From Deuterostichococcus epilithicus (taxonomy: Eukaryota > Chlorophyta > Trebouxiophyceae > Prasiolales > Stichococcaceae): a stretch of DNA of 64,000 bases. Each line of letters opens with the position of its first letter. The stretch's first letter is position 1. The stretch is from the NCBI GenBank assembly GCA_033439295.1, contig JAVTLE010000023.1, positions 1,550,001 to 1,614,000 of the forward strand, in the 5' to 3' direction. Of this stretch, positions 1-61,800 are shown in pieces. The position numbers and the translations under genes were made by a program. The notes under the pieces are model-generated. The model was not told the DNA's origin and did not search any database. It saw nothing but the letters and a program-made list of their open reading frames with translations.

Positions 1-3000
1 TAGGGAACTCCAAGCTGAGCAGCGCCAACAGACTGCTTGTTCATTCAGTTGGATTTGCATATGCAAGTGGTTGTCAAAGTACCGAAAGCAACCTGCAGGG
101 CGCGCAGGCGCTGTGTCAGGTTGTCCAGGGTGTAATTGTCGTCCGGGTTGTCCGCTGCAATAAAGCTGTAGTACTGAAGCAGGTTGTCATTGCTGCGCGG
201 GCCTGTTCAGTGGCAAACATAGCCTTCAGCACACTATCTGGCGAAAGGCTGCTCAGTTCTGACATGCTGTCAGCCCAGTCGCTGGGTACACGCATGCCAT
301 GCGGGCACACGGGCTTGGTTGACCCTGAACCCCAAACCCTGAGGCGCCAGGGTGCTCACCATATGTGTTGAACAGCTGCTGACCTGCAAGGCGGCCAAAA
401 CTGCGTCAAGGCGTCAGCAAGACGAGTGACAGAAGACTGCGAGCGATGCACCATTGGTTCCACTGCACATGTTCAAGGCGTGGGCAGGAGCCCCACCTTG
501 CCGCACAGGCTTGTGGCCGACACTGACTTGGAAGCGCTCCCTGAAATCGTTGTACGCGGGCACCGAAGTCACCAACTGCAGAGCACACAGGCGAATTCGT
601 CAGCAGCAGACCGCAGTGACGTTTCTGATACAAATGCAGATTCGGTTTAGAGGCGCATTCTCGAAGGTGTTTGGTGACGTTGCTGCACTGGGCCAGGGCA
701 CAACAGTCTGCACAGCTTGAGAATGAAGGCGGCTTTGACACTTGCATGTGCAAACACAGCGGGCGGCATGCTGCACAGGGTGAACTCAAAACCATTCTAA
801 GAAAGAATCGCACCTCTGGCTGGGCGGCATGGTTCAAAAGATCCACGCCCGGCACCAGGCACAGCGCATACGAGTCCTTGCCCATAGCCGTGCTGGCCAG
901 CGCCTGCAATTTGATCATTGACGAGCACTATCGATGCTTCTTCGTTATTGGTGTTCCTTTGGATCACTGCGACCAGGTGCCAGGGCTAAATGTCAGGTGA
1001 GTGCAATCTGACGAATGCATTATAATGCGCTGCTCAGGCAGAAACCTTCGAGATGCTTTGATGCCTTGCAACCCACCAGCACAACAAGAGGGAATGTGTT
1101 TGTGTGGGTCCGACAACTGGACGCCTGCTGTTCAGTGGGTACGGACTCGACCCTCCACGCACGCACCTGCCCAACGATCGCGGCGATGATGCAGTAGAAG
1201 AACGTCTTCACATGTTCGCCGACCATGGTGGTGAACGCCATGAGCACGACGGCAGTTGCGGCGCGCACATAGAAGGCGCTCATCCCCGCGCCTGCGGCGA
1301 GTACACCGCGCGTCAGACCCGCATCTTGCCATGCTTGTGTGCGATGTTGCACCTCCACTTGACACGTCAGCCGCAGCAGACACGATACAGCGGACTAGAT
1401 GGCAGGTGCATCGTGACACACCGGCCTCCCCCCCGATGAAGGCGCGCGACTTGACTGTGTCCAGCGCCCAGTAGAGTTCCGCCGACGTGATATTCGTGCC
1501 TGCACAGGCAGATGAGAACACGATCGTGCAGGGCTGCACCTTGCTGGCTGCTTCGCTCAGCTCAAGTTGCCATGATGACATGCGCTTATAGCAGCATCGG
1601 GTCATCTCGACCTCTGTGAGTGTGGGCCGACGGATCAGCAGAACATGCCCCGTTGGCTGTGCACCATGAGAGTGGCTATGAGATTACTGCAGAAGCTCAC
1701 AGACCGCACCCAGCGTAGAGTTTCGCAGGTCTACAAACGCCTGCCGCCACTCTGCCCGCTGCTGCAGCGCCTGCGCAGGAAGAGCCGTATGGGTGAGAAT
1801 CGCCACGGGCCGCACCGTAGCCAGAGTGCTGCAAACGGACCAATCCAGCTCTGCGCAGGCATGTGCGCAGGCACATGTGCAGCTGCACAATGTCGTTGAC
1901 CCCAGTCAGGCTGCATCTCGGTCCTCAACCTGTTCAGAAGGAGGGCGCACAGGGATGAACAAGGCCCGAGTTGCAGCTGCAGCAGGTTGGCGTCGCGCCA
2001 GTGCCATGGCAAGAAATGATGATTCATCTGCACGAGTCGGAACTTTTACACGTGGAGACAGGCGAATGTGCACCGCGTGCGCCAGCGGCGAGTAGTGCAG
2101 CTGCAGCAGGTCTGCGGGGCGCCAGCGCCATGGCGGGTCGTGCGCCTGAGGCAGATCGGCCAACCAGCCGCCCTTGCGCGAGGCGCCGCCCCGCCGCCGC
2201 TCCCACACCAGCCGCAGCGCCAGCTTGACTGCCCTGGCGCCCAGATATGGTACTGGAATGGTTCAAGTCTTCATGTTGGAATCCCGTGCCGCTCGTTTAG
2301 ATCACCAGGGTTGTTCATCGCCTTGATTCGCTGACTGACCGTGTGGGGCAATGGGCTCTGGGTGTGGGCAATCGGCCAGGCCGAGAGCCGGTGCCAAAAG
2401 GCTGTCGGCAGGCTGCCCCGTGGATGCATTGCGCACCCGTCGGCAGTCGCCCAGAAGGACTGCGACGAAAAGTCTGGCGGGAAGGGGCAGCTGATGTTGC
2501 GCGTCAGGGGCACCTCCAGCGCCGCCGTCCGCGGCACCTGCGCCGGTCATCTGCCAGCTGGTACAAAAGCGTGATATGCAGTCTGACGCCTGGCAGACTG
2601 CATGCATCAGAGGGTTGACTGCTCAGGTGTTGTTGAAGCTCCCTACCGTGATCACGAGCTCGCCCGGCTTGAGGTCGCGCGTCGCATACATGCCGCGCAT
2701 GCCACGCCCAGAGGCGTGCGCTAGCCCGTACATCCTGCAGGGCGGGCGGGGCATAGCATCACCCTTGCAGTTGACAACAGCTGCAGCGTGAGGCTCGGAG
2801 GTGGGTTCTGGATGATGACGACACAGCAGCCATCTCCCCACATTCGATTGTGCAGCCAGGAGCCCAAAAGGTGTGGTTCACCCGATGTGCAGTTTCCTGG
2901 CGGCATCCAGAAAGGAGTGGGTGCTGGTGTCATTGAGCCAGCACAGCGCCTCTTCTGGCGTGCACTGCGGCACCTCCAAGGGCCGCAGCGCACGCGAGAA

Positions 3001-3126
3001 ATAGGGCACCAGCCGCCGCTGCAGGCGCCATGGTGGCGGCCGCAGCACGCGGGTCACCTCGCCCAGGCAGTCTGCCACTGAGCCTGTGTCAGCAGACGAC
3101 ATGTCGTAGTTGTTGTCATGATTCAA
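1..3126 (-). CDS. SET-domain protein lysine methyltransferase, Rubisco-LSMT-like (3' end outside window)
   Basis: Predicted S-adenosylmethionine-dependent lysine methyltransferase of the plant Rubisco-LSMT/SETD3 class, probably plastidial. It is read right to left in at least seven exons. The exon at about 2640-2730 has the SET entry motif RGMYATRDLKPGELVI. The exon at about 2074-2225 reads DLLQLHYSPLAH, and about 1690-1866 reads QRAEWRQAFVDLR. The exon at about 1430-1500 reads AELYWALDTVKSRAF. The exon starting near 907 reads YALCLVPGVDLLNHA, with the cofactor-binding NH pair. The short exon near 375-395 ends in QLFNTYG. The exon at about 70-290 starts the substrate-binding domain (QYYSFIAADNPDDNY), and the rest lies beyond base 1. 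Between the RSRAF and DLLNHA blocks sits an extra hydrophobic exon at about 1170-1300. The exon at 2878-3100 (CTPEEALCWLND) fits the usual N-terminal segment but is less certain. Confidence 0.7.
1970..2136 (-). repeat. Exon segment copied into the downstream intron (SET gene)
   Basis: About 41 bases of the SET exon (2095-2136, encoding the DLLQLH region) recur with a few changes at 1970-2011, inside the intron that follows this exon. Both copies share the core GCAGCTGCAGCAGGT and the block GCCATGGC. Confidence 0.75.
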
Positions 3127-3144
3127 CTGCTCTTGCGCAGAGAA

Positions 3145-3723
3145 TCAATAAACTGGACTGGTCGAGGAGTTCAGCTGTAACAGCTCACCGGCAACCCGGA
3201 TCTGCACGGCGTTTTCGGCGCCCACATCAATGCGCGATCGGCCGACAAGCAGGACTGCGTCCTCCAGCCGATCTGCGGGGACCGCGGTGATGCTGCAGGC
3301 CTGCTGGTCCCTGCACAGCACCCTGTGCGGCGGAAGGTTGGCGCGGCAGTCGCTCCATTGCTGCCACTCGGCCGCCGACAGCAGCAGGACGTCGATCGTG
3401 CCCGATCGTGCTGTTGCACGGATGTCAAGGCTACAGGCACCCCTGATAGGCTGCAGCAGCTGCGCTTGGCCCAGGGGTATCCGGGCTGTGCTGGCGGTGA
3501 GTCGCGCTGAGGATAGAGGATGCGGCTTGGCAGGAACGACTGCAGACGTAATGAAGCTCTGGGCAGACGCTTTATCAGTAGTACACAAGTATGTCAGAGC
3601 AAACACAGCCGTGATTAGAGCAAAGCTCGCTGAATGAGCTGGTTGAGCGGTTCGACATGCATGCGGAACGCTCATTTCCACCGACGCGGTCAAGATCGCA
3701 CGGGCATCGAGCGGTGTCCGCAA
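3145..3723 (-). CDS. Unrecognised exon or small gene with a secretory or transit-like N-terminus
   Basis: An open reading frame of 192 codons on the minus strand. I do not recognise the family. From the second methionine (base 3675) a hydrophobic stretch, SFALITAVFALTYLC, follows a short polar start and looks like a signal or transit peptide. The C-terminal third is compact and globular-looking (IDVLLLSAAEWQQW, then two or three cysteines, then VLLVGRSRIDVGAENAV). A good splice donor (CCG|GTGAGC) lies near 3188 before the stop, and an acceptor lies near 3100. The exon could therefore join the SET gene downstream as its 5' exon, or it could be a separate small gene. The sequence alone does not decide. 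Confidence 0.4.
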   Translation of the reverse strand: MRTPLDARAILTASVEMSVPHACRTAQPAHSASFALITAVFALTYLCTTDKASAQSFITSAVVPAKPHPLSSARLTASTARIPLGQAQLLQPIRGACSLDIRATARSGTIDVLLLSAAEWQQWSDCRANLPPHRVLCRDQQACSITAVPADRLEDAVLLVGRSRIDVGAENAVQIRVAGELLQLNSSTSPVY

Positions 3724-4126: not shown

Positions 4127-7100
4127 CTACCGGGCCGGCGGCGGCGCACTGCCAAAGTCAACAAACATCTGCTGCAGCCAGGCAGGTGGCGGCACGCCGC
4201 GGCGCCCGAAAAGGATCCGCTCCGCCTGGGTGCGGCCATCCGCTGTTGGCGGCGGCGCCGTCATGAAGTTGGTTTCTGGCACATAAGCCTCCTCCTGGCG
4301 GGACCCCGCGAGGCTCTCCTGTGCGATGCGCGCGGCGATGCGCGACACCAGGCGCTGGAAGAACAGCTGACCTGCGAGCGTGCAGAGCGAATAATTTGAG
4401 ATGGTTCAACGGACAACAAGGTGTGGAGAAGGTGGCAGGATCGTATTGAGACGAACATTCGGACTGGCTCTGCTGTCTGCGGCCTGCCTGATGCGGCATG
4501 GCGCCTTGCACACCAGTGAAAACCCACACGGGCTGCGACCACGATCCCTTGACGATGCCCCTCGTACACATGAGTGCAAGTAAAAGACTCTGCACGACAT
4601 CAACATGGTCGAAAGGCGACCCGACCACAGCTAGGACAGCAGGTGCGTGAGCCCGCTCATCAGCTATGGTAAGTTTGGAGCAGTAAAAGCCTGCAGCAGC
4701 CACAGACATGACGCCCCCGATCCTCGTGCAGCAGCATCATGCAGTTTCGTTGCACCTGTGAACAGCAGCCCGGGCCACAGCTCGGGCAGCATTGGGGCCA
4801 GCTCGCGTGCGAGCGCCAGCGAGCTCCGCGTCGCTGCCCCGGACGGCGCGGGCACCGATGCCGCCGCGAGCAGCTCTGTGACGCCGCGCACCGTCGCCAG
4901 CGCGTCCTCGTCCTCTGGCGTGGGCGCCACCACTGGCTGCAGCCTGTGGCATTGTTTGATTTGTACACTGATTAGATTAGAGTCATGATTTGCCTTGTCA
5001 AAAGTGAACTGCCTCGTCAGATGTTCTCAGCGCCTGACGCACCCTCTGCTGTCAGCGTCACCACTGGCTGTAGCTGGGGACAAGGACACTTCCACGGATG
5101 ATGTGTGTGTCTGGCGGGCGAGTGTAGATGCAGTGTGGGGCACATTCTGCTGCGGCAGGCGCGTCCCGGTCTGCCGTCACCGCCGCCACAGGGCGACGCT
5201 GGTGTGACAGCCCGGAAGCGCACCCCAGTGCCGCCCCAATTTGCCGCCCATGCCAACATGTCCAGATCCAGCATAGGAGCAGGAATCCAGCACCGGGTTC
5301 GCTTAGTGAGAGACAGTGTCACCTGCTCAGGAAGGCCACGGGGCCCGGCGGCTGCGCCAGCAGCTGCAGCGGCGCCGGCAGGCCGGCGCGGAAGCTGAGC
5401 GCAAACGCAACCGGGATGCTGCCGAGCACCAGCTGGCACACCTGGAAGGCGCCAGCCCGCCCCAGAGCATCTGCCGCCGCTGCTGCTTCCTGCAGCATGA
5501 CAGTTGCACATTAGGTGAGGATGCTGAAAGTCTTGACCAGGCGAACCAACACAGCAACCGCCGCCGCTGCTGCTTCCTGCGAATGATTGGGTGTGAACGC
5601 TTACTGATGGCTCGACTAGTCGAACAACATCATTTCCACGACTGCAGACTGCAAGCGGGACCTGAACCTCTGCATCTCGGTTTCCAGGCAAGGTCAATTC
5701 TTCACACATCATCCACACCACACTGCAGACATGCAGAGCACAGCAGTTAAGAGGTTTCTGACTGCACACACCTCTGCGAGCAGCTCTGCTGCGTAGGAGC
5801 CGGTGGGTGAAAACACCAGGCGCAGAGCGTCCTTCGCATTCCGGTCCAGCAGAGGCGGCTCCTCTGCCGGCGCACCCGCCGCAATGCGTTGCTGCGGCAG
5901 CAGCAATGGCTGGCTTGAGAGGTTAGCTGGTGCCACAGTGGCGGCTGGCGGCGCAGAGCAGTAATGCCTGAGAGGCGTAGAAGCCGGGGACTGCGACAAT
6001 GAACGAGGCACTGCAGATGTGAAAAGTTCATTTCACAAAGTAGCACCTGCTGCGCCTGGGCGGCAGGGCTGTTTGCTGCCAGCCCGTCCACTGTGAAGCG
6101 GTTGAAGCCGGACGCCAGGCGCTGCAGCCGCGCAATGTCGATGCGGTTCTTGCCGCCGTACAGCGTCGCCCGCAGCGCTGCCTGCAGGACAGAGTACCGT
6201 TCGGCTGCCTGCTTGCTTGCTGGTGCGTGATGATGAACGTAGCGTGATGGAGGTTCAGGAACCACCGCAAACAGCCACGCGGCGCCGTGTCCATTTGCTG
6301 AAGGGTTGCAGTGCGTGTTGCCGGCCAGCGATGTTCACAGTTCACAGCGAGGTGCGGGTCACAAGGAGGCACACCTGGATGCGGGGGTCGTTGTCGACGA
6401 GCAGGCGGCGCGCGAGGTACGGGAAGCACTCCTGCACAATGCTGTAGGACGGGTCGACGCGCAGCGCGATGCCCTCGATGACCGAGAAGCAGCGCAGGAT
6501 GAGAGCAAAGTCTGCGGGTAACGAGGCAGGCCATGTCGGCTGGGGCGCGCCGCATCAGTTTCTCGAGTGGTGGCGGCTGGCGGCGCTCGGGGACCGGAGG
6601 ACGCTGCGATATGTTTGAAAGGCATGAGCGCGAGGCAGCAGTCGTGAGGTGCGCGGAAAGTGCGTGCTCTGAAGTGTCAGCAGGAGGAGACGGCGCAGAC
6701 AGAAGGGCGCACAGCTGGGGATCTCGAAGGGGTAGGACTCTGACAGCGTCTCGATGTCCCTCGTGATCTGCACGCCACACACCCCAAGCTTCAGTCTCTG
6801 CACATGTCCTGCAAAACAACAAAGTACAGGACGCTGCTGCAGATGCAAGGCAGTGCTGCATGAGATCCCTCGTGGTCTGTGAACAGCGCTCCAACAGGAC
6901 AGACCAGGTCAACCTGGTTGATGCCGTTAGGTCGCCGCCGGCAGTTGCACTGCAGGTGGGTGCCGACTCGAGCTCGCGAACAGATGGCGGGAACAGCAGC
7001 GGACCTGCTCGATATTGACGCCCTTGGCGCCGCCGCCGGCGGACAGCTGCGTGAGGATGCGGCCCAGGGGCTCCGCGATGACGCTGCTGTCGGGGGCGCT

Positions 7101-10100: not shown

Positions 10101-12771
10101 TTGTGGTGAACACCCTCAGGCTTGCACTGCACGATGCGAGACTGAAGTAGCCGCAAGCACCTGGAGTGCAGGCAGCCCCTCGCATGCCCACCGCAGGCTT
10201 TGCCGTGCATGCCTCAAAAAACATGAGAGGCTGCACCTGTAGAAGGTCCTGAGTGTTGTCTTCAGCCTTGGACCTTGCTGCTCGTTCCTTGTGGCTGAAC
10301 CTTTTGAAACGGGCTCGAAGATGTCAAGCCAGCCATGCTGCCGGCATGTTAGCGGGGCACATGGCGTCCACAGCACCCCTGCCAAGAATGTAACCCACGA
10401 ACACAACCAACTGGACGAACCTGCTCGAGGATGCGCTGGTCGTATATCGCTGGGACCTCCTGGTGCTCGATCCAGCCTTGGGAGGGGTCATAACCGCGAC
10501 CGGGCGCCGTCGCCACGACCACGAAGCCCACCACGATGGCCACAGCCATGATGAAGCCCGCACTGTACCCACCGACACCTGTAAGCAGGTTTTCGAGCGA
10601 GAGTATCACACCTGACCACCAAGCCAGCCCTGGTTGTGGCTGCGAGCCGTGGCAACCTGCCATTTCGTGTGGTGCCAGTGGCACGATGTGGTGAAGGGGG
10701 ACTGGAACCAGCAGCTACAGCAGGGCAGAGGGGTGGCAGCCACAAGATGCTCGACGAACGGTGTGGCAGGCTGCCCACCGTTCTGCTCGAAGGCTGTCAA
10801 GGATGCGGCCAGGTCAACGGCGATCCCGGCGAACTTGCCCTCCGCGCTGCGGGCCGCTGCACTGCTCTCAAGTGCGGCTGCCAGGCCGCGTACAGCATCC
10901 TGCAGACGATGACCAATCGGGACCGTCAGACTGTGAGCTTCTGCATCGGCGGGGTGATGAAAGCTGTCTGAAAGCGCCGTGTGTCTGTGCACATCGGCTG
11001 GACAGGCACCAGATCGTGCACTTGTTTCCCCGCGCTGAAGCGCACATCTGCTGGTCAGCCGCCAGATCGCGCACATGTGCCTCCGCGCTGGGAGGCTGTT
11101 TGTGTGAGAAGCATCACTCCCTGATGATACTGCCGTTTCTGCTTCAGGTCGCGCGCCGCTTCCCCTGGACTGCACAACCGTGGCCTCCATCACCCACACA
11201 AGCGACCGTGCCTCCAAACATGACAGCTGCGCACCTCCAGGGAGTGCGCGCCGCTCTGCAGCACGGCGCCCGCCGCCTGCCGCAGCCGGGCGCCATCGCC
11301 GCTGGCCAGCGCAGACAGATTGCCGCCAGCGTCCAGGCCCTGCCGCCCCAGCCAGGAGCGCAGCGGCTGCAGCGCCTCAACGACCGCAGCGGTGCCAAAG
11401 TGCGGCTGCAGGCTGGTCGGATCCCGCTCCAGCACCTGAAGCAGAGAGGCGCCAGCACAGTCGGCGTCTGGGAAGGCCGATTGTAGGAACCTGGCCTTGA
11501 GCAATGGCGATATTATGCACAGTGGACGCAGAGCACCGCGAGGGACCAGTGGCTTTGCACAGGACAGCAAGAACACAGCGGCAGACAGCTGTGCTGTTTG
11601 CCAAGACCAGGTGATGCGTCGACTGGGTGAACACATCCAATGGCATCAAAACTCTGCAGATTTCGCCACTGTACCTGGGCTCCATGCTCAATGCTGCTCC
11701 CCAGACTGGATGCAAAGTCTGCCAGGCCGCTGCCAGCGCTGCGGGCAGTGTCCAGGGCTGCCTGCAGCACGCCCTCTGAGCCTCCTGCACACCAGCTTTC
11801 AACATTGATTGCCTCTGCAACGAGCTGCCGTGCGGCATCTGGTATGTGCTCTCAACCATCTCGATGAGTCGTATGGAAAACCTCACTGTGCACACCTCTG
11901 GCGCTCGTTGGGGTGAGGCTGCTGAGCTGCTGTGCCAGGCTTTGCAGCTGGCCGCTGAGCTGCTGCGCGAGGTCGTTCGGCACTCCCTGCGACAGCTGTG
12001 ACGGCACCGCACGTGTGACGCTGTCCCATGCCGACTGCGCCGCATCTCGGCCAAAGTGCGCCTGCGGCGCTGCTGTATCTGTGCTGATGCCTCCTCCACT
12101 GACGGTGCTTGCCTGGAATGTGCGCCACCACACATGGTTGAAGGCCAGCATGCAACAAGGAAGCACCATCGGTGAAAGGAAAGAAACCAACTAATGCTGC
12201 AGATTTACATGCTCCTGCTTCACCTGCTGTTCGAGCGCTGCCATTCGCTGCTGGATGCTGGACAGCATGTCGCTGAGCGGCTGGGTCACGCCGGCCCGCG
12301 AGCCCAGCAGAGCTTCAGCAGCAGAGCTCGTTCGCTCGGATAGAGCTTGCTCTGCGGCTGAGAGAGCTTGCTCCGCGGCTGACACTGCGCGGCATATGGG
12401 AGAAAGCCGTCAGACCATCACTTGAGCACCTCGTCAGCATCAGCATGAACATACGCAGCATCCCGCCGCACACGTCTGCAGCAGCCAAGCCCACCTCGAG
12501 CTGCAGCGGTGGCGAAGCCATTCGCGAGCGCATCCTTCGCTTGTTGTGGCGCTACTGTCTCGAGCCAGTCGGACAACACGCTGGCCTGCGCCTGCTGCCT
12601 GCCCCTGCATCGAGGCTGGCATTGCCGAAATGAATGTCGACCCGTGGGACCATGCAAGGGGCTGGCGCCATACAGGCCAGCCTGAAACGTGCTCTGCAGC
12701 ATGTTGGCATGAACTACTCTGCGCAAATCGATGAATGATAGCTGCAATTTGTGCCAGGACATGTCGATCAA
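4127..12771 (-). CDS. ABC1K/UbiB-family atypical kinase, plastid type, with a long N-terminal extension
   Basis: Atypical protein kinase-like ATPase of the ABC1/UbiB family; plastid members control plastoquinone and tocopherol metabolism in plastoglobules. It spans more than 20 exons. In order: [16 protein letters not shown] (about 9640-9690), [14 protein letters not shown] (9110-9150), [20 protein letters not shown] (about 8820-8880), [20 protein letters not shown] (8410-8474), [17 protein letters not shown] and ILDFGLMV (7600-7690), [15 protein letters not shown] (about 7110-7155), [15 protein letters not shown] (about 6440-6490), [18 protein letters not shown] (about 5790-5850) and the tail [10 protein letters not shown], ending in TAG at 4127. 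The family KxGQ motif reads KVAQ. Upstream exons to about 12771 add a transmembrane segment ([19 protein letters not shown], about 10500-10560) and an alanine-rich repeat ([14 protein letters not shown], near 12360). The start is uncertain. The spacing most resembles plant ABC1K1, but I cannot assign a subgroup. Confidence 0.85.
5471..5580 (-). repeat. Exon start with acceptor copied into the upstream intron (ABC1K)
   Basis: The first bases of an ABC1K exon, preceded by CAG (5471-5494, exon encoding EAAAADALG), recur exactly over about 22 bases at 5558-5580 within the preceding intron. The second copy is also preceded by CAG. Confidence 0.7.
8141..8195. repeat. Pentanucleotide microsatellite (CGCCA)n
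   Basis: Eleven tandem units of CGCCA, with one unit changed to TGCCA, in an intron of the ABC1K gene. Confidence 0.97.
10986..11093. repeat. Two-unit tandem repeat, about 53 bases per unit, in an ABC1K intron
   Basis: Units 10986-11040 and 11041-11093 share the frame CACATC...GG.CAG.C.CCAGATCG.GCAC followed by CCGCGCTG, with about three quarters of positions matching. It lies between two N-terminal exons of the ABC1K gene. Confidence 0.75.
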
Positions 12772-13126: not shown

Positions 13127-16100
13127 TCATTGGGGTGCGTCCCTGGCCCCACGGTGCTCCCTGACACTGTGTCGTTCCGAAGACACCCGCTCTCCCGAGC
13201 GGCCGCTGCCGCCCGCCGCCGCCGCTGCGTTGCCACCGGTCGCAGCGGTACCCGCCTCGCCGGAGCGGCTGCTGCGGTGGTGGCGCCGCNGNNAGGAGCC
13301 CTCCCGCGGCGGTTCGTGCCCTGCCGTGGCCGCCGCGGCTGCACGCTCCTTTTTCCTCGCCTCCCGGATGTCCCGCCGCCGCTTCACAATCTCCAGATAC
13401 AGCTTCTCCCGATACTCCTCGATGGAATACTGCATTGAGGCAGCCAAGGGTGTGTCTGCTTGTCATTCAGCAACAGTCAGGTACCCTTCACCAACAGGCT
13501 GTGCGACAGGCCGACCAGGGCTGCCCGTTGCATGATGCGCAAGCGACGTGCGTCTCCGCGCTGGCAACGGTTGATGAGATTGAAGTTGTGATGGGCAGGG
13601 CGCGCCATATGGTTCGTGTCGACGGGGATGCTGATGGCGGAGCCGTGCACCGACAGTACATGGATGAAAGCCGCACCATGCATGGGCAGGGCGCACACCT
13701 TGTGGTTGTCGTCGATGGGGATGGTGATGGCGGAGCCGTGCACCGGCTCGTCGTCGCTGTTGTGGAACTGCGCCACGTACGGGTGCGCTAGCGCCTCGCC
13801 CGCCGTTATGCGCTTGTCCGGGTTAAACTGCAGCAGCTTGGCCACCTGCGCGAGGCAGCCGTGCATGGCCGTTGGAATGCTGCTGTGCCGTTGAAGTCCT
13901 CTGCAGCTGCCGTCCACCACCAGCCACAGTTGTGCAGTTGTGCACTGGACCTTGCTGCAGCCCCACCTCTGCCATGATGCAGCAGCCTGGCACGGCTGAA
14001 CCCCACCATTGCGAACAGACCGCAGGGTCCAGCGAGACAGCTGTCCCTCAGTGAGACTTTGTACTGTCTCAGGCACCGCTTAGCACTCCTCTGTGTTCAA
14101 ACTACTGCCAGCAGCCGGTGCGGCAAAGCCGTACCAGGTCGGTGGCCTCCGGGCTGGCGTTTGGGAACATGTGCTGGAAGGTTCGCGGGTTGTCCACCGG
14201 CAGGCTCTCCAGCATCGTCGCTGCAAATGGCGACTGGATCGCCGAGATGTCGTCCGTCGACGGCCGCCCTGCAGCATGTCAAGGTCCAGAGAGCTGGGAT
14301 GAGGCTGTCAAGGTGGTGCCGCGCAGCGACATTCGAGCGCCGCTGCTGGTGGCCAGCAACTTGCTTGGGCAGCGCTCTGTTGGTGAACGTATGCTACAAT
14401 GCTGCGTGGGCATACGAGGCAGCACCACATGACGGGGCGGCAGGACCAGCCCAGCGATGGGCAGGTTATGACCACCGTGCGACGACGTGCCGGCCTGACC
14501 TCTGGCAGTGCCATGCCTGACCTGTGACCTCGATGATGCGGTCCAGCTGGTTCATGGTGGAGGTGCCCGGGAAGATGGGCTTGCCGCCCAGCAGCTCCCC
14601 CAGGATGCAGCCTGCAGGCAGCATGTGACGGCTTCTGCACGAGATGTGGGATGGGCATCTGGTGTTTGTGGAGCGAGCTCCCCCTGGTGTGGCTCCCAGC
14701 CCCATAGCCCGCTGGGCTCGGCACCTTGGCAGCTCACGTGCGAGTCCTTCAGGTTTCCAACGCCGCGGCGGCCCATCGTTCTGGAGCAAAAGTCCAGCCA
14801 CCGCACACAGCGGCATCCGACCCAACAGCCATTGCAACATACTTCACAATGGCATGCTTCCGGATGAAAGCACAGGTGAGCCTTACCGCAGGACCACATG
14901 TCGACGCCGTAGGTGTATCGACTGGAGCCGAGCAGGATCTCGGGGGCACGGTACCACCGGGTGGCCACATAATCCGTCAGGATGGGGCTTGGGCCGTCGT
15001 CGGCCGCCAGCTGTGTGACGGAGCGTGCCAGGCCAAAGTCCGCCAGCTTGACCTGGCACTCGCTGTTGAGCAGCAGGTTGCTGGGCTGCGGGCAGCACCA
15101 GGGGGAATGGTGTCAGCCACCCTGGCCAAAGCCGTCTCGCCCCCGAGCGAGCTGCTTTGGACTGGATGACCGGATGCCCCTCGACCTGCCTTCATGTACC
15201 AGAGCCTCGGCACTGTGTCGCGCGGTACCCACACCGCCCAACACACCAGTTGCACCGGAAGGGGCGAGTGACGAGGCTGCTGCTCCTTGCACGAAGCAGC
15301 AGAGCGGCCATACCTTGATGTCGCGGTGCAGCAGCTCCGCTGAGTGCATGTACTTGAGCGCCTTGAGCAACTGGTACATGATGTACGACTTGTGGATCTC
15401 CTCCAGGATGTTGGCGCGGATGACGGCGTGCAGGTCCGTCTCCATGTACTCGAAGATCAGGTAGATGTCCCGGTCGTTGACCGCCTTGATGACGTTCAAT
15501 ATCCTGGATGTTTGCGCAGGTTTTACGAAAGTTGTAGGTCCTCTGGAGAGGTGTTCGGCTGGGTCTTTTGTGGGAGTGCGCATGGGCGCGGCTGCACCCG
15601 AGGCTGGTCGCTTGCTGCGCGCGGCTGATGGGGCTGTCATCCTTCATGACGTCTGAAGAACCCTCGGGTGCAAGACACACAACAGCGCTGCAAGCCTCAG
15701 CCGCAGAGGCATGTTGGACACAGCGCCGCAAGCTCAAGAACCAAGGATTGCACCTGATGATGTTCTCGTGGTTGTTGAGCTCCTGCAAGAACATGATCTC
15801 CCGGAACGTCCGCTGTGGGCAGGGACATCGCACCTCAAGCTAGCAGCGTCAGGGACAGCTGGCGGTAAGGGCGCTCGGCTACAATTGAACGGAGACAGAC
15901 TGATGCAGCACAGCAGCCAGACACCTGTGCATCTGTGGCGTTCTGAAAGGCGTCAAAGATCTTCTTCAGCGCGATCACTTCGCCTGTCTTCTTGTCCAGC
16001 GCCTTCCAAACGATGCCGTATGCCTGCACGAACGGGCAGATGTCAACGACATCCGCAACGTGCATCGAGTGCGAGATGATCAGCAGACACTGCTTACAAA

Positions 16101-20597: not shown

Positions 20598-23500
20598 TCA
20601 CAGCGACAGCTTGAACGAGATCTTTTCCCGCTTGCCGTTCTTCCCGGTGCCCAGGATCTTCTGCTGGTCCTTTTTCTTCTTCTTGTCCTCCTTGTCCCGT
20701 TTCGTTTTGTCCGCCTGCATCTTCATCTGCAGCTCCAGAAGACGCTGCTCCGCCGCGGATTGCTCCGCCTTTGCAGCCAGCTGCCGGGCCTCCTGTTCCT
20801 GTGGTTTTGGGGGCGGCACAGGGAGTGCGTCATGCGCCGCAGAATGCACATGGATGACTGGGCGTTGACGGGGCTCTCCAACACAGCCGCGCTGCCGGGC
20901 AACTGCCCTCATGACCAGGATCAAGCACAGCCGCGGCTCGATTCGATTCGCAACAAGGCCAGGTCTTTCGGGTATCGCTGCATGCGATCGTGTGCCGCCT
21001 GGCGGCGGGCAGCCGTCAGGTCCTGCGTGGGCGCAGGGGAGTGGATCCCTTGCCAGAAATTCCACTGTCTGGCGGCGGGTGGCCAACCAGGCCCTGTGTG
21101 GCTCATGGGGATGGGGCCCCAGGCGGGAGACGTCTAGCAAAGGACGGGGCATCCGAAGCAAAACATACCGCCTGGCGGCGCGCGGCCTCCAGGCCCTGTA
21201 GCTCTGCCTTTTTGGAGTCGATGGCCGCCTTGGCCTGTGCCTGCTCCTCCTCCATCGCCGCCCGCTCCGCCTCCAGTTCCGCTTCGACTTGCTCCTCCAG
21301 CACCTGTGGTGCAAGGAACCATGACATCATGTTGTTTGGAGTTTTCCGACCGGTGAAGAGCCCGCTCCGCCCCCCTGTTTCGCTGCAAACTGTTTGTCCA
21401 GCACCCATGACGCCGCAGGACATTGATTCTGACTCCGAGTTCAAAATTCTACCAAATTGGTGGAAAGCGTGCTCTGTCTCCAGCTGCTTTTCCAGCACTT
21501 GCGGCGCAGAGTTCTTGAATGACGTTTGTAGGCAGCAACAGCCAGCTCGGTTACTGGCGAGCTGCCTGCCTGACATGCTGGTAGCACGCGCGCGGCGGGA
21601 CTTGCTCTTCCAGCGATCCTCGTGCAGGAAGATGACACGAGCTTGCTTGCCTTCAGCCTGGCATCCTGTTTCTGCCGGCAGAGTGCAGCTCTACAGAATG
21701 CGCCACACATGAGGCCACAGTGTGCTGGCAGGGTGCGCCACTTACCCGCCCTCCTCTGGACTTTCACCAGTTCATGACCTCCACCTGTGCTGGCCCGATC
21801 GGACCCGCAGCAGCTGGGCAGCGGCTTGGCGCTCACTCCATCGGCGCTCACTCCAGCAACCTTGCTGCGGCGCCTGCAGCGGGGTCTGATGCAGCCGACC
21901 CCGAACTGCCTCCAGCTTGACAGGCGGCCAAACAAGCGGACTGTGTCTCCCCAGTGGCTCTCGACTGCCTCCACGTAGCTTTCCGGCAGGAAGAATGTCA
22001 TTAAGGGCTAGACAGAGTCACCGTGCACTCAGCGTCCAGCCGCCTGCAGCGACTGCTTCACCGCATCCGGCTCCATCTGGATTTATTGAGATGGGGGTTC
22101 GTGGTTGAGAGAGGCACTACATCCTGGACAGTAGCAGTGTTCACCTTGCGCTCGGCATCCAGCCGCGCCTGCAGCGACTCCTTCACGGCATCCGACTCCA
22201 GCACCTCCGCCACCCGCTGGTCCACCAGCCGCGCCACCTGCGCACACAAACATGGCCCCAGTTACTCACCGGACATGAAATTAGCACCATCTGCTGCGTC
22301 TCCGGTTCAGGCTGGTGAGCACGTTGCAGCCAGTGGCCGCGGATGCGGTGCAGGCCGGCGGCAGCAACGATGTCAAGCGGAGCTCTGGGAGCTGCTCAGG
22401 TGATTAAGAAGAATCACAGGCTGGCAGACATGGCGAGCGGTTTGCCCTGCACCTGTCTGGCGACCTCCTCCTCGATGAGGCGCTCCTCCAGCGTCTGCCG
22501 CCGAGCGTCTGCTTCCGCCTTCCGCCTGCACCAGATCATTGCGGCATGAGCAACTGCCGCTACATGCATGCAGGGCCTGTCTGCTGTGCGGCAGCGGGTA
22601 GTCTCAAACTGCAGTGTGCCCACGGCAGAGCGGCCGCTAGCAGGTGCCGCGGCAGTGCAGCGCGGTGGCAAAGCCACATGATAAAATCCGGTTCCAGCTT
22701 TTCCAGGCAGCCGACAGGCAGCCAGGTGGGCGAAAGGTGACCAACCTTAGGCGGTCTGCCTCTGCCTTTGCGGCCGCCGCTGCGCGCTCTCGCTCGACGC
22801 TTGCCGAGGAGCGGCGCGCCCGCGGCGGGCTGGCCGCCTGCTTTCCACCTCCCCTGCTGCCGCCAGGCCTGCCCCTGTTGCCGCTCGCCTTCCTCCGTGC
22901 CGGAGAGGCGCTCCTGCTGCGGCTGCGGCTGGGGCTGGCAGTGGGGCTGTGGCCGCGCCGCCGGCGCCTGGGGGGGCTGCGCGATGGCGACCGCCGGCCG
23001 NCCGGCCGCCGGGCNGGCAACTGCGGGGAGCGCCGCGGAGAGCGCCGCCGTCGCCGGGGGGAGGGCGATCGCCTCCGGGGCGGCAGCGGTGATGGCGGCG
23101 TGCAACGCCGCTGACGCACATCGCGCCGCGGCGAGCGGGACCGCCGGTGCCGGTCAGGCGCTCTGGAGTCGTGCCTGCAGCGTCGGAGGCGCGTATCAGG
23201 GCTCCACCTGACACCTGGTGGCCGGTGCATCCACGTGCTTGGTGGCAGACAGTGATTGAGTGCGGGGCGCGCCAGACTGGTGTGTGCGCCGCTAGCCTCT
23301 GCAGCGGCGCGCGCAGGCGCACCGGACTGGGGAAGCATCAGTCCCGGTTCTTGGCACGCTTCATGAGCTAGCCTGCCCCGCTGGCGAGGCCACCGGCCTC
23401 CAGTGACGTAGAGAGGAACTTCAGGTTGTGTTTCCGGTATTGGCGCATAAGGATTCAGAGGCACGGCGGAACAGAGGCCCAGGGAGCCGCACAGGGAGGT

Positions 23501-29815: not shown

Positions 29816-29855
29816 CCAGAGCGCGGCGTGCTGGGCGTAGCACCCCAGCAGCAAA

Positions 29856-43917: not shown

Positions 43918-46900
43918 ATGGCAGCCAGCGACGGGGACCCTTTCGTAGACATCGTCACTAGCCTGCAGGCGCACACGGGGTCGCGCGGTCAGGCGCCGCC
44001 TGACGTCTGGAATTACACCTGCCGCCAACTGCTGGGCCTGATGAATGACTACCCTGGCGGCGTCTCGACTCCGGTGCTGGAGACCCATCTCTGGTCTCAC
44101 AGCCGGAGCTCCCAGGTGCGCAGCCATGCAGCCCACTCAATGCTGTGGCATGCATGGCACCCGGCAGGCTGTGACTGGGTTCATGCGCTCGATCAGTCAC
44201 AAGTCGTTTCTTGGATGCTGCAGACCTCCGCCGCGAGCCAGTCGCAGGCACCGGGCCTGGCCGAGATGCTGTGCATGTCGAATGAGCAGCTGCAGCAGCC
44301 AGTCTCCGGGCTGTGGGTGTGCGTTGAGGGTGTGCTGGAGGGCTCGGACGGCTCCGCAGCAACCTCAGCAGCGCCCGCGGCGGTGGCGCCTGCGGCGCAG
44401 GCGGCGGTAGCGTCCGCGGCGGTACCTGTGCTGCTGCTGCGGGACGGGTCGCTGGCGGACGGCGCCAAGAGCGTTGGCATGTACATCCACTCAAGGCTGC
44501 GTGAGCTGTTCTGCGGCCCTCAGGCGCCTCTGGGCTCAGGTAGGGCTCTGGAACCTCGGTGCTTCAGCTGTCGAGCTTCCATGTATATGCTGCCGCGTGA
44601 TGCCTCAGCAGCGAGGCAGCTACGAGTGCAATCGTAAGACTCTCGGGGTCTTGGCGCGCAGGTCCTCTGCTGGCTTTTGAAACACATCTCAGCCACGATC
44701 ATACTCGGCAGGGCAGACATGGAAGGCACGTCAACAACCTATGATTGACCTGCGTGCATCACACCTGCAGGCTGCCACCTGCGGCTGGGCAATTGCCGGC
44801 TGCGACGGCCGGGCAAAGCGTCTGGCCTGCCGCCGCGGCTGCTGCCCACAACAGAGCTGGCGCTGGTTCTGGACAGCGCACAGGCGGCGGCGCAGCTGTT
44901 CGCCCAGCAGCACATATTCTCCCTGGCACAGGTGTGGGCTCAGCTCTCCTGCCAGGCTCCCTGTCTGATGCGCGTGAGCACTACACTCGCACTAGTAGCC
45001 GGGAGCGACATCACACAGAGTCACAGGTTCTGGAGTCTTCCGAGGGCTCCCTTAACTTTGACAGTGAACGACCTGCCAAGTATCGCCGGTGACACACCGC
45101 GCCGCTGTACCGCACGCAGGTGACCAGCTCGGCGCCAGTGGCGGAGGGGCAGCAGCAGGTGCTGACTGGGCTGCTGGCGGCGCGCGTCGCCCACGTGGGC
45201 GCCCAGTCCGACGGGCTGGCGCACGCTGCTGCGCACGCTAGCCGCTTGGCGCGCTGCCGCAGCGTCTGGCTGGCCGACCCTGCCGACCCGGGCGGCAGCG
45301 GCGGCGGCCTCACCGAGCTCCGCCTGCTGGACCAGCAGGTGGTTTCAGGGATTTAGGGTTTGGCCAGACAGGCGGTCCCGGGCTCGTCCTGTGTTGGTCG
45401 AGTGAGGCATGATGCGAGCACAGTGCGAGCGGACGTACAGCCTTGTGGCGAACGCTGCTCTGTCTAGGCCCGTCATCTGACAGGGCCTGTCTCTGGCAAC
45501 GCAGGCGGCAGTGGCTGACCTGCTGCGACCCGGCGAGCAGCTCGTGCTGCGGTTTCCGGTCATACTGGGCCTGCAGTCCACGATGTGCCTCCAGGTGATC
45601 GTGCATCCAGCCCTGGCGCTGCCGTGCCTTGCCTTGCATCATGCCATTGGATGTCGGCAGCCTCGTGTGAGAGACCGTCCATGCAGCAAGTTTTGTGCTG
45701 CGGCGCACTCGACCTGTGCCGCTGTCATTCCACAGCTGGGCGTCGACACTGTGGTGTGCGTCATCAGCGGCGTCGCCGCCACGCAGCCCAGCCAGGCTGC
45801 GGCGCCCGGCAGCCAGGCGCGGCGGACGATGGTGTCGGATCTGCTGCCCGGCGCCGTGCGGGCGCTGCTGGTGGGCCGTGTGCACAGCCTGGACTTTGCG
45901 CAGCTGGGCGGCCGCACAGTCCTGGACATGCAGCTCCAGGTGCCTAAGAGCCTTGTGCTCATAAAATACAATAGGGCTTTTCGGTGCTGAATGTGTGGAC
46001 AGGCACTGCGACCGGCGCCTGCGGCGGCTGCGCAACACCCTGCGCTGAAGCACTCAACTGTGCGGAGCACCTGGCATGGGCACCCGGCTTGCGGCCACTG
46101 GCATGGGCGCTGCGCCGGCCCGCCTGATGCAGACCTTGCTGCTGCCGCGCAGGACGCCAGCGGCAGCCTGGCCCTGCGGATGCACTTCGTGGGCAGCCCG
46201 ACGCAGGCGGCGCTGTCGCTGAGGGCGGGTCACGCCGTCGCTGTCGCCGGTATATCTGTCCCCGAGCAGGACGCGCCGCTAGCCAGCCCGCTGCAGGCCG
46301 AGTGGCACGAGGTCATACGCCCCCCCCCCCCCTTCCTCCACGGCGTGTGTCCCTTCGCCGCTGTCGCTGGCTTGGATGCACTGCCGCCACTGAAAAAGCG
46401 CACGTCATCGAGGACGCATCTGCGACTGAGGGTCCCCTTTGAGGTGGTGGCATCCGACCATGCGTCGCCATGCTGCAACCACCCGCATGGGAGCGTCGTG
46501 GCCATACTGCAACATTCCTCGGACGAATCCGCCGCTCCCCGTGTGCAGGGCCTGGACGCCGCGCAGCTGCGCAACCTGACAGCCATGCGTGCGGCGCTGC
46601 ACTCGCCCGTGTTCCACGCCTCGCTGCTCAGCCTGGCGGCGGCGGCGGCGCCGCAGGCGCGGCCAGCCAGCATGATGCTGGGCCAGGCNCGGCTGGCGGC
46701 GCCGCCGGCGCTGTTCTGGCAGCGCGTGCACAGCGCCTGCGGTCGCGGGCTCACGGATGATGCGCGGCTGGGCGGCAAACCCCGCGTGAACGTTTCAGAC
46801 GACGGCAAAGGTGGCTCTGCCGTCATACACATGGCATCAGCATGGTGCAGGGCTTTCGTCCCGGGCCTTCCCCATCCTGCTGTGCGAATATCCGTGGGCA

Positions 46901-51300: not shown

Positions 51301-52647
51301 CTGCTCTGATGTGGGACTGTGCTCTGAAAACCCTCTACAAAAATGCGTTCCGGGCAGCGGCTGCTCCGCAGGCGCGCCCTTGAAGCACTGAACCAGCAGG
51401 TCATCACAACTTTGCGAGGTGATAAACATATAAAGCTTGAGGAACGGCTGCTTTGCGAAGTGCATGTTGAAGGGCAGCTCTGCGGAGTCCATATGGACCA
51501 ATGGCCTGCCTTTGTGCCTGGCTGTTTCAATCCAACTACAGGCCGCACCTTGGGCAGCAGCTGCTCCTTGACAAGCTTGATGGAGATGCACTGCACTGGC
51601 TGTCTTGCCTCACGTTCGGATGCACTGTTCAGAGTCTTGTCCAGAAATTGCAAGGTGCACCTTGGGAAGAGGCTGCTCCGCCAGGAGCTTGTTGAAGGGC
51701 AGCTCCGCGTCCCTGAACACGCTCACGAAGTGGTCCGCCACCAGGTCCAGCTGCACCCGCTCGTCGCCGCCATACCGCTCCTCCGCTGCGCGGATGACCT
51801 GCGGGTGGACGCGGCGCATGGGTTGGGACGCCTGAGATGGTTAAGCGAAGTCACCGGGCAAAGATGCAGCATATGCATCCCCCTCCTGCTGCCCTGTAGA
51901 AGCGCTGCGACCAGGGCTTATCGCGGTCTGGCACTCTGCATGCCATACTTGCATGCTGCTGCGCTGCTGCCACATGGCCTGTCCATCCAGTGCGTCTGAT
52001 GGCGCCTGCATGGAGGACATGGTGACAGTGCGCACGCTGTGTGCTGCACTCTGCCTTAAAGGATGGCGAGGGGGAGCACTTTTCATAGCGCCACAGCAGA
52101 TCAGGGCTCACGTTCGTCACCGCATCCAGCTTCAGCTGAGTAGCGGCGGAGGCAGGCGTGGGCTTCCTGACTTTCTGCGCTTTTGGCTTCTTCTTCTTCT
52201 GCTTCGCCGGCGACTGCTGCGAGGCGTCGCTGCCATCGTCGGTCGTGTGGTCCAGTCCGTTCAGGCCGTTGACCTCGTTGGCATAGGGGCCCCCGCCGTT
52301 GCTGGCGTGGCTCTTCTGCGCCGTTGCTGACTGCTGCTGGCCTCCGTCTGCAGCGACCAAACCATTCAATCAGAGCTATCTCAGGTGGTAGCGTCCTCAT
52401 GCGACCACGTCCGCTTGTCATGCTGTGGAGATATTTGGTGCACCGAGGTGTGATGACTGATCATGTTGGTTGTGTTCCAGTGCCAAGGCTCACCGTCGCG
52501 CTTCCATGCATCCAGCGCCGCAAATGCGGAAGGAACGCCATCAGATGCTGCCGCGCTCTGTTTCAGCGGTTCCGCGTCGCTCTGTGTGCTGCGCTTCTTC
52601 TCCTTTTTGTCTTTCTTGGCCCCGACGGTCTGCCACGCGCCGTCCAT
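48322..52647 (-). CDS. TMEM214: TMEM214-family endoplasmic reticulum membrane protein
   Basis: Homologue of TMEM214, an ER membrane protein linked in animals to stress-induced apoptosis; its plant role is not established. The start at 52647 reads MDGAWQTVGAKKDKKEKKRS, the family opening. A lysine-rich exon follows (SPAKQKKKKPKAQKVRKP, then AVTNVSPDLLWRYEK). Next come ERVQLDLVADHFVSVFRDAE with LPFNKLLAEQPLPK (51655-51790), VTKTPVDAVPADIVEAVSGF (about 51175-51235), RAKPAALLLNAGALAAGGRR and YTSSGRLPLLLWLINQAAQ, and GSEAVAVGVWVRVLLPQIL. Further exons are near 49760-49920, 49200-49570 and 48800-49060, the last with hydrophobic stretches (LVTVAGGLGISMALAALTAG). The visible C-terminus, near 48322-48555, is amphipathic. 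The intron after PLPK is a tandem array. Confidence 0.75.
51354..51710 (-). repeat. Four-copy array of an exon end filling an intron (TMEM214)
   Basis: The exon end encoding NKLLAEQPLPK (about 51656-51710, donor AAG|GTGCAC) has three diverged copies in the next intron, near 51545-51600, 51442-51490 and 51354-51400. The period is roughly 90-110 bases. The nearest copy reads KLVKEQLLPK and keeps the donor AAG|GTGCGG. Confidence 0.85.
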
Positions 52648-58800: not shown

Positions 58801-61800
58801 GTCTCTGGTGTGTGCACTCGCTTGCCCCACCCATCGTGTCGCTGCTCAGTGAGCGGCATGCAGCACTCGACAGCATCCTCGGAAACGGCCGCTTCAGATC
58901 GCTTGGAACAATTTGCATCGTAGAAACCCATCCAGCAACGAACGCTGACAGTCCTGGCAGGCAGCAAGTCCTAGGAAACGCCTTGTGCCCACCTGCTCGG
59001 TGAGCAGCATGCAGTCGTTGGCGGCGTCCTTGAGCCGCGAGTTGAGCGCGTTGAGCTCGTGCGTGGTGCAGGACACGGCCGCCGCGCCGCGGAACTCCAG
59101 CACCATGAACCCTAGCGGCAGCGGCCCCGCCGCACCGCCCTCCCGCTGCTTGGTGCCCGGCTTGGGAAGTAAGAAGTAGAAGCCGCGCCTCGCCGCATAC
59201 AGCACCTGTGCGCTGTGCACGCCACTGCGCTCGATGCCGTGCAACGGCCCGTTTTTGTGCTTGCCAGCGCGCTTGGTGCTGCGCTGCGGATCGCGGGGCG
59301 CGCCTGGAATGCTGCTGCACTCACAGCTCGGCATATCAGGGATGGCGCATGGTGCAGCCTGGAGCAGTCGGACTCCACAAAGTGTCTGGTGTCAGGCACA
59401 CGCCACCACCGCCATTTGATGCGACCTCTGCACGCACATGAAAGAGCTGCGCGGCAAGCCCGCACCCCAACTAAGCAGCATGTTTCCACATTGAAGGAGT
59501 GCAAATCAGCTCCCGCCTGCGGCGCCTCCGCGCTATTGTGCACCTACTCCGTCCCGACATCGTCAGAAGCTGGGTCAAGGGAGATCAGCGCGCCTTGAGG
59601 GAGGGCAGCTCCAGCTCGGCCCGCAATGCCTCTGCGGATTCGTGGATCTGCTCCGTGATGCGGCAGAAGATGGAGCGCGCCAGGTCCAGAAAGCCGTCCA
59701 CTTCGCCGCGCACCGCGAAGCACTGCTGCGTCCTGTTGATGAAGGCCGCCTTGGACGCCTGCACGTCCTAGGCGGGCAGCGGGGCAGGGGCCCGGGAGTC
59801 AGACAGACGCCCATACAGCCGTGCAGGGCAGCGCTGCGGCTCGACGGTCGGGATGGTCGGGGCTCCTGCGCGCCGCCCGGCGCTGTGTGACAGGCTGCAA
59901 GTTTGCTTCGTCTGCCTGAGCCCAGCTCATCACCTGAGGTCTAATTCATGTAGTCTGCTCAAGCCCAGTCTAGCTGAAGTTGTGTACTTTACGCGAAAAT
60001 GCCAAGGCAGGCGTGTGGGGGGTGACATCTTGCCCACCTCGTCGATGACCTGGTTGACCTGGTCGAGGATGTCGCGGAAGGCGCGGTGCTCGAAGGTGTC
60101 CCGCAGCGCGCCCAGCAGGCGGGTGCGCGCCGGCGACAGCGCCGGCGCCAGGCCCGGCAGCGCCGCCAGGCAATCGCGCAGCAGGATGAAGCTGCCGATC
60201 AGCGTGGACATGCGCCTGCGCCGCAGGGCGGAACGGCACTGGACGGCGGTGGCTTGTTGGGACAGTAGCTGACCAGGCATGTCGGCATCGTCGGCTGGCA
60301 CCGCCGGGCCTCGTGCCAGCATGCATGCGCGCCAGGCCTTCTGACATCTGAAGCTTTCAACCTTTAGGGTTTCACTGGAGGGCAGCGAAGCCCACTTTGC
60401 GGGGTCGCCGCCGCCGCCGGGCTTGATGGCCATGCCGCTGCAAACACGGTCCAGGTCCTTCGGCATGCTCTGCAGACACGCCTGCGCAAGCCAACATGTG
60501 CCATGCATTCGTCTCGGTTGATCTCGACAAGCATCACCCAGCTCGTGACGTGCATCACGAGGGCAAGCAGCACCAGTTGCTCGTGCGTGATGCGGCTGAT
60601 ACATGTGTGGGCCACCGCCACCAACAGGCGGTCACACTACTCGCAGTAGTTCCGCCACGACATCACTCTCATGAATACATGGACGATCCAGATGGGCAGC
60701 AAGAAGAGAAGGGACAAGTGAAGGGGTTCGAAACATACGGCCTTGCCTTGACACCGGGCCTGCAGCTCATTTTCGACCTGCAACTCTCGCTCCTTTCCTG
60801 AAATGAGGAGAACTCTGACATCGTTCCAACAAAATTTTCACCTTCACAGCAGTTTGCAGCTCTCGCTCGACGAGCAGCTCCTCCAGGGCGTCATAGCGCA
60901 GCTCCATTGCCGAGGGGTCCGCCGACGGCTGCAGCAAGTTGGCCTGCAGTCCCCAACAGGGCATGCTTCACGCGTGACGGTCAAGCTCAATCGACAGGCG
61001 ATTAAGCTGCGCCTGGCGGCTCATCGGCATCAGTGTGTGTGCAATGCTGGTACAGGCTGCGTCTGCGTATGTTGTGGTAGCGTGCAAGCAGGGTGTTGTC
61101 GTGGAGTGACAGGGAACGAGGCGGCGGGAGGCGCGCCCGCAGCAGGCGTGCCCCGCAGCGCGTCTCTGTGTGGTTGAGCAGCCTGCGGGTGTGGGAGCAC
61201 CGCTTGTCTGCCTAATACTTTCATCCAGGCAACACCGACGTAGGCATTGCAGCGACATTTCAAAGGATGTTGTCAAAACAAAGGCATTTGAGCAGCACCT
61301 CAGTTTCCGCTGCATCACCTGTACAGGCTGGAGTCTTTCCTGGTGGCTCCGCCAGCCTGGCGTGTGGGCTCTATGAGCTCCAGCGCCTGCGCACTGGCGG
61401 CGTCGATATACAGGTGGCCCCGCAGGCTGCGCAGGCACACCTGCAGGCTGCCTGCTGCCAGCAGGATGCGGCACTGCTCCGACTCCAGGTGCCTGACGAG
61501 AAACACGCCAAACGTTGGGTTCAGGGTTCAAAACTGAATGAAGGCCTTTGTAGACTCTAGCCGCCTGCACGGTGCGGCACTGCTCCGACTCCAGGTGCCT
61601 GCCGCAAAGCATGTGCTACTTAGAAAGCTCATGGCTCACGACAAAACGAGAGCCTCGCAGACCCTCCCTTAAGGTCCTTTGAGACACGAAGGATGGCATC
61701 AGTCTTCCCGCTGTCAACTGCAAGAGGCAGCACGAGCACCAGCAAATGATGTGCTGGTGCGTCCGGCAAGAGCACCTGAGCAGGGCTCCTGCGGCGCCCA

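Follow-up and report, generated by a model that had tools for sequence, protein, structure and literature searches.

Diverged copies of adjoining exon edges in introns of the green alga Deuterostichococcus epilithicus and their possible origin in old breaks at splice junctions

Local duplications linked to intron gain or to DNA breaks are known from several eukaryotic systems. In Daphnia, one report (PMC4202315) describes neointrons that have a 4-12 bp direct repeat at the opposite end of the new intron, relates them to staggered double-strand breaks and states that further breaks enlarge introns. A second source (PMC4974935) covers intron gain by AGGT tandem duplication (the Rogers model) and the potato RdRp gene, in which an intron was gained by a duplicated intron-exon unit. 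In mammals, according to PMC2246262, interstitial telomeric repeats are found at double-strand breaks, with flank duplication at 6 of 130 rodent loci and 4 of 25 primate loci. Here, we describe a related pattern in the green alga Deuterostichococcus epilithicus, the introns of which frequently contain a diverged copy of the edge of the exon that they adjoin. The pattern was analyzed in a 64-kb stretch of DNA (bases 1,550,001-1,614,000 of contig C19), hereafter the window, and in two other contigs.

Each of these systems shares part of the algal pattern. Like Daphnia neointrons (PMC4202315), the algal introns carry the end of the adjoining exon as a direct repeat with sequence between; unlike in Daphnia, the repeat is far longer (∼20-70 nt) and close to its own splice site, and no intron birth was seen. 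The AGGT model shares local direct duplication, but the offset of the algal copy differs from the intron length (PMC4974935). In potato RdRp, acceptor and exon edge are likewise duplicated; that event gave a new intron, whereas the algal introns appear to have been lengthened and their spacers are mostly unmatched (PMC4974935). The mammalian insertions combine telomere repeats at a break with flank duplication in a minority of cases, whereas the repeats of the alga are degenerate, mostly intronic and located beside exon-edge duplications (PMC2246262). With Introners (PMC9860276), the shared trait is mass intron change in a lineage; an all-against-all comparison of 476 sampled introns yielded 5 short matches (18-29 nt), one of them telomere-like, and no intron family. 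A literature search, outside which most subscription journals lay, turned up no description of algal introns in which an exon-edge copy and a telomere-like spacer occur together.

A copy of an adjoining exon edge was present in 59 of 475 predicted introns (12.4%), 4 of which have copies at both edges. The sample comprised 304 kb of the 46.8-Mb, 21-contig genome, i.e. the window and 240 kb from two other contigs (C1:500,001-700,000 and C5:600,001-640,000). Genes were modeled on both strands by a gene finder self-trained on the sample, which yielded, at convergence, 53 genes with 475 introns. In gapped comparisons at a score of at least 28, 35 of 457 donor edges and 29 of 463 acceptor edges matched their own intron. 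By contrast, unrelated introns of equal length gave 1 match in 883 donor comparisons and none in 903 acceptor comparisons with no complexity filter applied, and the observation described in an earlier note on the window, which had been made from its sequence, is confirmed. Exon parts 50-100 nt from the edge matched their own intron in 2 of 308 and 5 of 317 cases. After complexity filtering, copies were in direct orientation in 63 of 910 comparisons and inverted in 1 of 910 (0 of 451 donor, 1 of 459 acceptor). Edges shorter than 20 nt were omitted from the edge-versus-intron and orientation tests.

Ungapped self-matching of the window at a score of at least 20 gave 2.5 matches per Mb and offset at offsets of 100-125, compared with 0.06 at 1000-1500 and none at 3000-3500 or 6000-6500. 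The direct-repeat excess reaches offsets of ∼150 in both the window and C1 and declines beyond. When 83 pairs at offsets of 70-200 were assigned by majority class, 56 were exon-intron, 9 intron-intron, 3 intergenic and 3 mixed, the remaining 12 forming an exon-exon class in which copies called as exons and protein repeats are unseparated. Copies were likewise found in 58 of 762 exon-edge test windows, compared with 14 of 1626 in introns and 6 of 775 in intergenic sequence; introns shorter than 150 nt were left out of the exon-edge versus intron comparison, and test windows with fewer than 18 distinct trinucleotides were dropped here and from the orientation test. Pairs with entropy below 0.80 were dropped before counting, and exon-intron pairs were kept at offsets of 40-350 with at least 12 exon-to-intron positions. 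These thresholds were hand-picked, and the main tests were scored at several cutoffs (24-50). Median intron length was 385 nt with a copy and 237.5 nt without, which is weak evidence when taken alone because longer introns offer more target; clustering of copies by gene (p 0.02) fell to p 0.07 once stratified by intron length. Exon-edge copies are thus confirmed as real, and they extend beyond the window to the two other contigs.

Of 68 exon-intron pairs, 67 have the copy in an adjoining intron and 47 touch a splice site (24 acceptor, 22 donor, 1 both), defined as a match that extends to -3 nt or beyond. All edge-touching acceptor copies lie upstream and all donor copies downstream, with 0 of 47 on the other side. 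In 41 of 46 single-edge pairs, the overrun of the match past the splice site lies between -3 and +14 nt, the lower bound being set by the definition; the exceptions were +17, +22, +23, +99 and +31. The 5-95% ranges were 22-68 nt for the exon part, 36-170 for the spacer and 84-220 for the offset. GT is retained at 14 of 23 donor copies and AG at 17 of 24 acceptor copies (lost at 9 and 7, respectively), about as expected from drift of an original GT or AG. The sequence around the copied sites resembles that of a splice site. Donor scores at +3 to +6 were 0.40 for copies, -1.39 for random intronic GT and 1.20 for all donors, and acceptor scores at -20 to -4 were 0.15, -1.45 for random AG and 1.45, respectively. 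The pyrimidine fraction at -20 to -9 was 0.573 at copies and 0.504 at random AG (p 0.024), and a branch-site-like motif was present at 46% of copies versus 23% in the comparison. Averaged similarity between copy and used site drops to background ∼8-16 nt from the edge. Such splice-like context suggests that the copy was once a real junction and not a fragment pasted in, or that the context belonged to a duplicated tandem unit and has since diverged.

The copies look to have drifted. Mismatches at codon positions 1, 2 and 3 numbered 15/11/20, 17/22/27 and 88/83/127 in three identity bands, and this near-even distribution with a mild third-position excess looks like neutral drift combined with silent changes in the exon. 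Five stops were found in copies compared with 7.3 expected (S.D. 2.7). Identity peaks at 93% among edge-touching pairs, with 0 of 47 reaching 95%, and one short non-edge match is 100% identical over 21 nt. A steady duplication process was simulated to place 22% of pairs at 95% identity or above, and the suggestion in the earlier note that some copies are fresh and the process continues finds no support in the sample, although young repeats may be collapsed in the assembly. Exchange between diverged alleles with unlike introns was dropped as a source, given that silent changes do not predominate among the mismatches between exon and copy; of 5 changes in the ClpP copy, 4 affect the encoded residue.

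Duplication of a whole unit should leave a spacer between exon and copy that resembles the sequence following the copy. Here, 46 of the 47 edge-touching pairs were compared; the spacer matched the post-copy sequence at p ≤ 0.01 in 7 pairs and gave no significant match in 39. Tandem units simulated at the two age settings nearest the observed identities, which were matched by eye, gave 26-28 of 46 spacer matches, or 19-23 with a high indel rate, and two younger settings gave 28-39. The observed count falls below these with P of 2e-4 or less, although the simulations give introns and copies equal rates and loss by large indels in introns would narrow the gap. Among pairs of at least 90% identity, 1 of 7 had a spacer match, compared with 54-85% predicted. 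Five well-preserved pairs (89-93% identity over 53-75 nt) lack a spacer match at p 0.01, and one further pair has one (Table 1). By contrast, the CDC45 intron at L016:2250-3050 contains, in addition to the exon, four copies of acceptor and exon start at spacings of 124-131 nt, and by eye is a true tandem array in which spacers look homologous at every second unit. Whole-unit and unmatched-spacer duplications thus both occur. An intergenic tandem repeat with ∼153-bp units was also seen at L018:2961-3560.

The telomere repeat of the species, evident as CCCTAAA arrays at contig ends, ranked first in introns among 20 heptamers of the same composition, with 21 segments at score 11 against a median of 5. 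At score 13, 9 of 9 telomere-like segments in the sample were intronic, and at score 10, 31 of 37. Spacers were enriched further: 6 of 60 contain a telomere-like segment of score 10 or above compared with 0.5 in matched intron segments, and 16 of 60 reach score 7 compared with 4.4. Direct repeats flank 7 of 31 telomere-like intron segments and 182 of 2994 random points (Fisher p 0.002, points not independent); given that random intron points and matched intron segments overlap, such p values are approximate. The most enriched 5-mer of the branch region, CTGAC (2.7-fold), lies near degenerate telomere units such as CCCTGAAC, and that telomere-like units supply branch sites is speculation. Other telomere-like intron stretches in the window lie at 322-340, 45349-45361 and 60363-60372, with no strong flanking repeat where listed.

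Taken together, the copies, their geometry, near-neutral drift and splice-like context, the mostly unmatched spacers and the telomere-like excess are observations that any explanation must accommodate. The explanation that we tentatively favor, at somewhat less than an even chance, is that old break repair at splice junctions duplicated the exon edge around filler and left the old junction as a relic. A local break-and-rejoin event would duplicate ∼20-70 nt of exon edge together with the splice-site core, to give the arrangement X, filler F, X'. One copy would keep the exon whole and use a junction with intronic context supplied by F, and the other, retaining the old intronic context, would lie unused in the intron and drift; the intron would lengthen by F + X with the protein unchanged. 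In a minority of pairs F would be the remainder of a tandemly duplicated unit. In the remaining pairs F would be unrelated to the post-copy sequence and sometimes telomere-like, which fits a staggered double-strand break filled in and joined with filler. The staggered break, the joining with filler and which copy is older are what we infer from these observations. A more specific version, in which splice junctions are or were hot spots for staggered breaks, exon boundaries mark the edges (e.g. through R-loops of spliced RNA with ends precisely at the junction) and telomerase or captured telomeric filler supplies new intron ends and branch sites, appears rather unlikely. The data support local exon-edge duplication as a process that lengthened introns repeatedly in the window and the two other contigs. 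The earlier note had local duplication making or enlarging introns; growth fits, whereas likeness of donor and acceptor flanks at the intron-length offset (score of at least 12), the signature of birth, was found in 3 of 409 introns compared with 0.5 expected. AGGT-type birth was therefore rejected for the bulk, although these few introns may be genuine; 409 of the 475 introns were kept in this test after exclusion of those shorter than 80 nt or with exon flanks shorter than 40 nt.

Several observations weigh against repair with filler as the general explanation. The gene models come from a predictor used without RNA, and the single assembly shows neither a fresh event nor an empty site. In 21 of the 68 pairs the match misses the splice site, several ending within ∼12 nt of one, and copied sites have somewhat lower scores than an average site would after 20% decay (0.40 versus 0.69 for donors; 0.15 versus 0.87 for acceptors). 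Splice sites beside copies are no stronger than others (p 0.92 and 0.63), and stronger new sites were accordingly rejected as the reason that copies survive. Whole tandem units appear to underlie the seven matching pairs and the CDC45 array, and given simulated detection such units perhaps make up 12-17 of 46. Most spacers (44 of 60) lie below telomere score 7. Random breaks with filler should yield more intron-intron pairs than seen; given the scarcity of such pairs, breaks or their fixation would have to favor exon edges over whole introns. The pattern could also be mimicked if the conserved exon converted its copy.

Plain tandem duplication of a junction-spanning unit, without filler, is a possible but doubtful account of the whole set, and a mixture in which it explains a minority of pairs alongside break-and-filler repair fits better. 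Selection on one copy would keep the exon half recognizable while the intron half decays at twice the rate and splicing conceals the unit, and direct orientation, adjacency, junction anchoring, the pairs with whole-unit homology and the CDC45 array follow directly. Mixed-age neutral duplication predicts ∼31 intron-window matches where 14 were seen, and ∼16 at score 50 where 1 was seen; arithmetic from the simulation table reduces this shortfall to about 2-fold if all events fell in a single old burst at ∼0.23 substitutions per site. The earlier note had named tandem duplication as the mechanism, which holds for the 7 pairs with matching spacers but falls well short of the roughly 19-28 simulated, and telomere-like spacers are not predicted. 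Gene conversion following old tandem duplications, with the exon overwriting its copy while spacers drift, would account for exon-edge specificity, lost spacer homology, scarcer intron-intron pairs and the absence of fresh pairs. It is nevertheless unlikely: it leaves the telomere-like spacers unexplained, and in the clearest whole-unit pairs the divergence of the spacer, read by eye, looks only about double that of the copy, which would be expected without conversion.

Templated insertion, in which repair of an intronic break uses a nearby exon edge as template with priming at splice-site sequence, would give an unmatched spacer and leave the real junction untouched. It also predicts inverted and other-side copies, which are virtually lacking, and a random rather than splice-site-like copy context, and is very unlikely. 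Hardly more probable is that the copies are functional, as alternative exon ends, decoy splice sites or cassette exons under selection. Some are indeed predicted as exons (in SLC25, CDC45, the lipase-like gene and TMEM214), but the spread of mismatches over codon positions and the near-expected number of stops lend no support to coding or alternative exons, and the splice dinucleotide is often lost. Chance, low complexity or gene-model error might be suspected in GC- and CAG-rich sequence with RNA-free prediction and a gene as repetitive as ARGLU1; given the other-intron and inverted controls, and models colinear with known proteins, this is scarcely credible.

The 475 predicted introns have a median length of 252 nt and the exons a median of 120 nt, with AG|GTGCG as donor and (C/T)GCAG|G as acceptor consensus. 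The AP-1 mu model aligns colinearly with solved AP-1 mu (residues 1-423), the RPS19 model is likewise colinear over residues 11-149, and the MSH4 model matches MutS proteins in its ATPase part. Among the 120 TOM40 matches listed of 648, the nearest from named species were those of Coccomyxa elongata (63% identity) and Myrmecia bisecta (65%), with three environmental sequences nearer still (77-86%), in keeping with a trebouxiophyte green alga. Kinase, ABC1, ARGLU, CDC45 and Clp protease matches to Pfam were obtained among the models; the SET domain of the SET-like model fell just under the Pfam cutoff, and the TMEM214-like model had no Pfam match. The names SET and TMEM214, and MSH4 in preference to another MutS, were taken from the earlier note. 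The gene finder fused MAPK and ABC1K into one model. At L010:8382-8560, real exon and copy were both called exons, an example of how automatic annotation can mistake copies for exons.

Self-matching of the window recovered copies at all the genes named in the earlier note, i.e. SET, ABC1K, MAPK, ARGLU1, AP-1 mu, TMEM214 and MSH4 (Table 1). The MSH4 copy there called identical matches at 44 of 52 positions. That copies usually include the splice site holds for the 47 edge-touching pairs, but the SET match stops 22 nt inside the exon and, without gaps, does not reach the site. That the pattern explains much of the intron sequence is not shown by the sample, as the 60 spacers total 4,874 bases, a small share of the 131,722 bases of intron. 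The ARGLU1 copies are the least sure, the gene being repetitive and coiled-coil-like. The spacer of the ABC1K pair with its copy at 5550-5580 matched at p 0.055, and the TMEM214-like copy at 51534-51585 was predicted as an exon.

Table 1. Exon-edge copies in named genes of the window (minus strand) and well-preserved pairs used in the spacer comparison
Gene	Feature	Position	Exon segment matched	Exon	Strand	Offset (nt)	Identity	Remark
SET-like	intronic copy of exon segment	1972-2010	2096-2134	2074-2233	-	124	87% over 39 nt	
ABC1K	copy of acceptor edge	5043-5074	4912-4943	4756-4943	-	131	81% over 32 nt	
ABC1K	copy of acceptor edge	5550-5580	5463-5493	5323-5489	-	87	90% over 31 nt	with GCAG
MAPK	copy of donor edge	13600-13652	13693-13745	13699-13845	-	93	83% over 53 nt	
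ARGLU1	copy of donor edge	20995-21025	from 21168	21169-21303	-	173	84% over 31 nt	
ARGLU1	copy of donor edge	22018-22075	22141-22200	22145-22237	-	123 and 125	85% and 91%	two pieces
AP-1 mu	copy of acceptor edge	35116-35165	34965-35014	34866-35011	-	151	76% over 50 nt	
TMEM214-like	copy of donor edge	51436-51484	at 51661	51661-51798	-	225	78% over 49 nt	
TMEM214-like	second copy of donor edge	51534-51585	at 51646	51661-51798	-	112	71% over 52 nt	
MSH4	copy of donor edge	58842-58879	58993-59030	58993-59283	-	151	76% over 38 nt	
MSH4	weak copy of donor edge	59491-59552	59595-59656	59594-59758	-	104	65% over 62 nt	could be chance
MSH4	copy of acceptor and exon start	61560-61611	61454-61505	61441-61492	-	106	85% over 52 nt	
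MSH4	telomere-like stretch in spacer between exon and copy	61517-61528			-			score 10; flanking direct repeat score 65
RPS19	well-preserved pair	L006:5965						spacer p at least 0.35
CDC45	well-preserved pair	L016:1348						spacer p at least 0.35
presumably lipase-like	well-preserved pair	L020:7557						spacer p 0.05
mitochondrial carrier	well-preserved pair	L010:8382						spacer p at least 0.35
ClpP	well-preserved pair	L025:5931						spacer p at least 0.35
	well-preserved pair	L009:3645					90% over 31 nt	spacer match p 0.01

Intron growth and turnover have mostly been inferred from rare recent gains, whereas about one-eighth of the introns sampled here hold a readable exon-edge relic. If splice junctions indeed are or were hot spots for staggered breaks with telomeric filler, introns would grow from their edges inward, and each event would leave the old junction as a readable and datable fossil.

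Minor features of the window were also recorded. It contains nine N bases, and single Ns occur at other fetched loci. A 53-bp unit occurs twice in tandem (81% matches) at 10989-11090, within the fused MAPK/ABC1K model. A single model at 29283-32610 joins an N-terminal ubiquitin-like part, just under the Pfam ubiquitin cutoff, to a long low-complexity part and may represent two genes; we take the N-terminal part to resemble UBL5/Hub1 and the low-complexity part to have a PWWP-like stretch.

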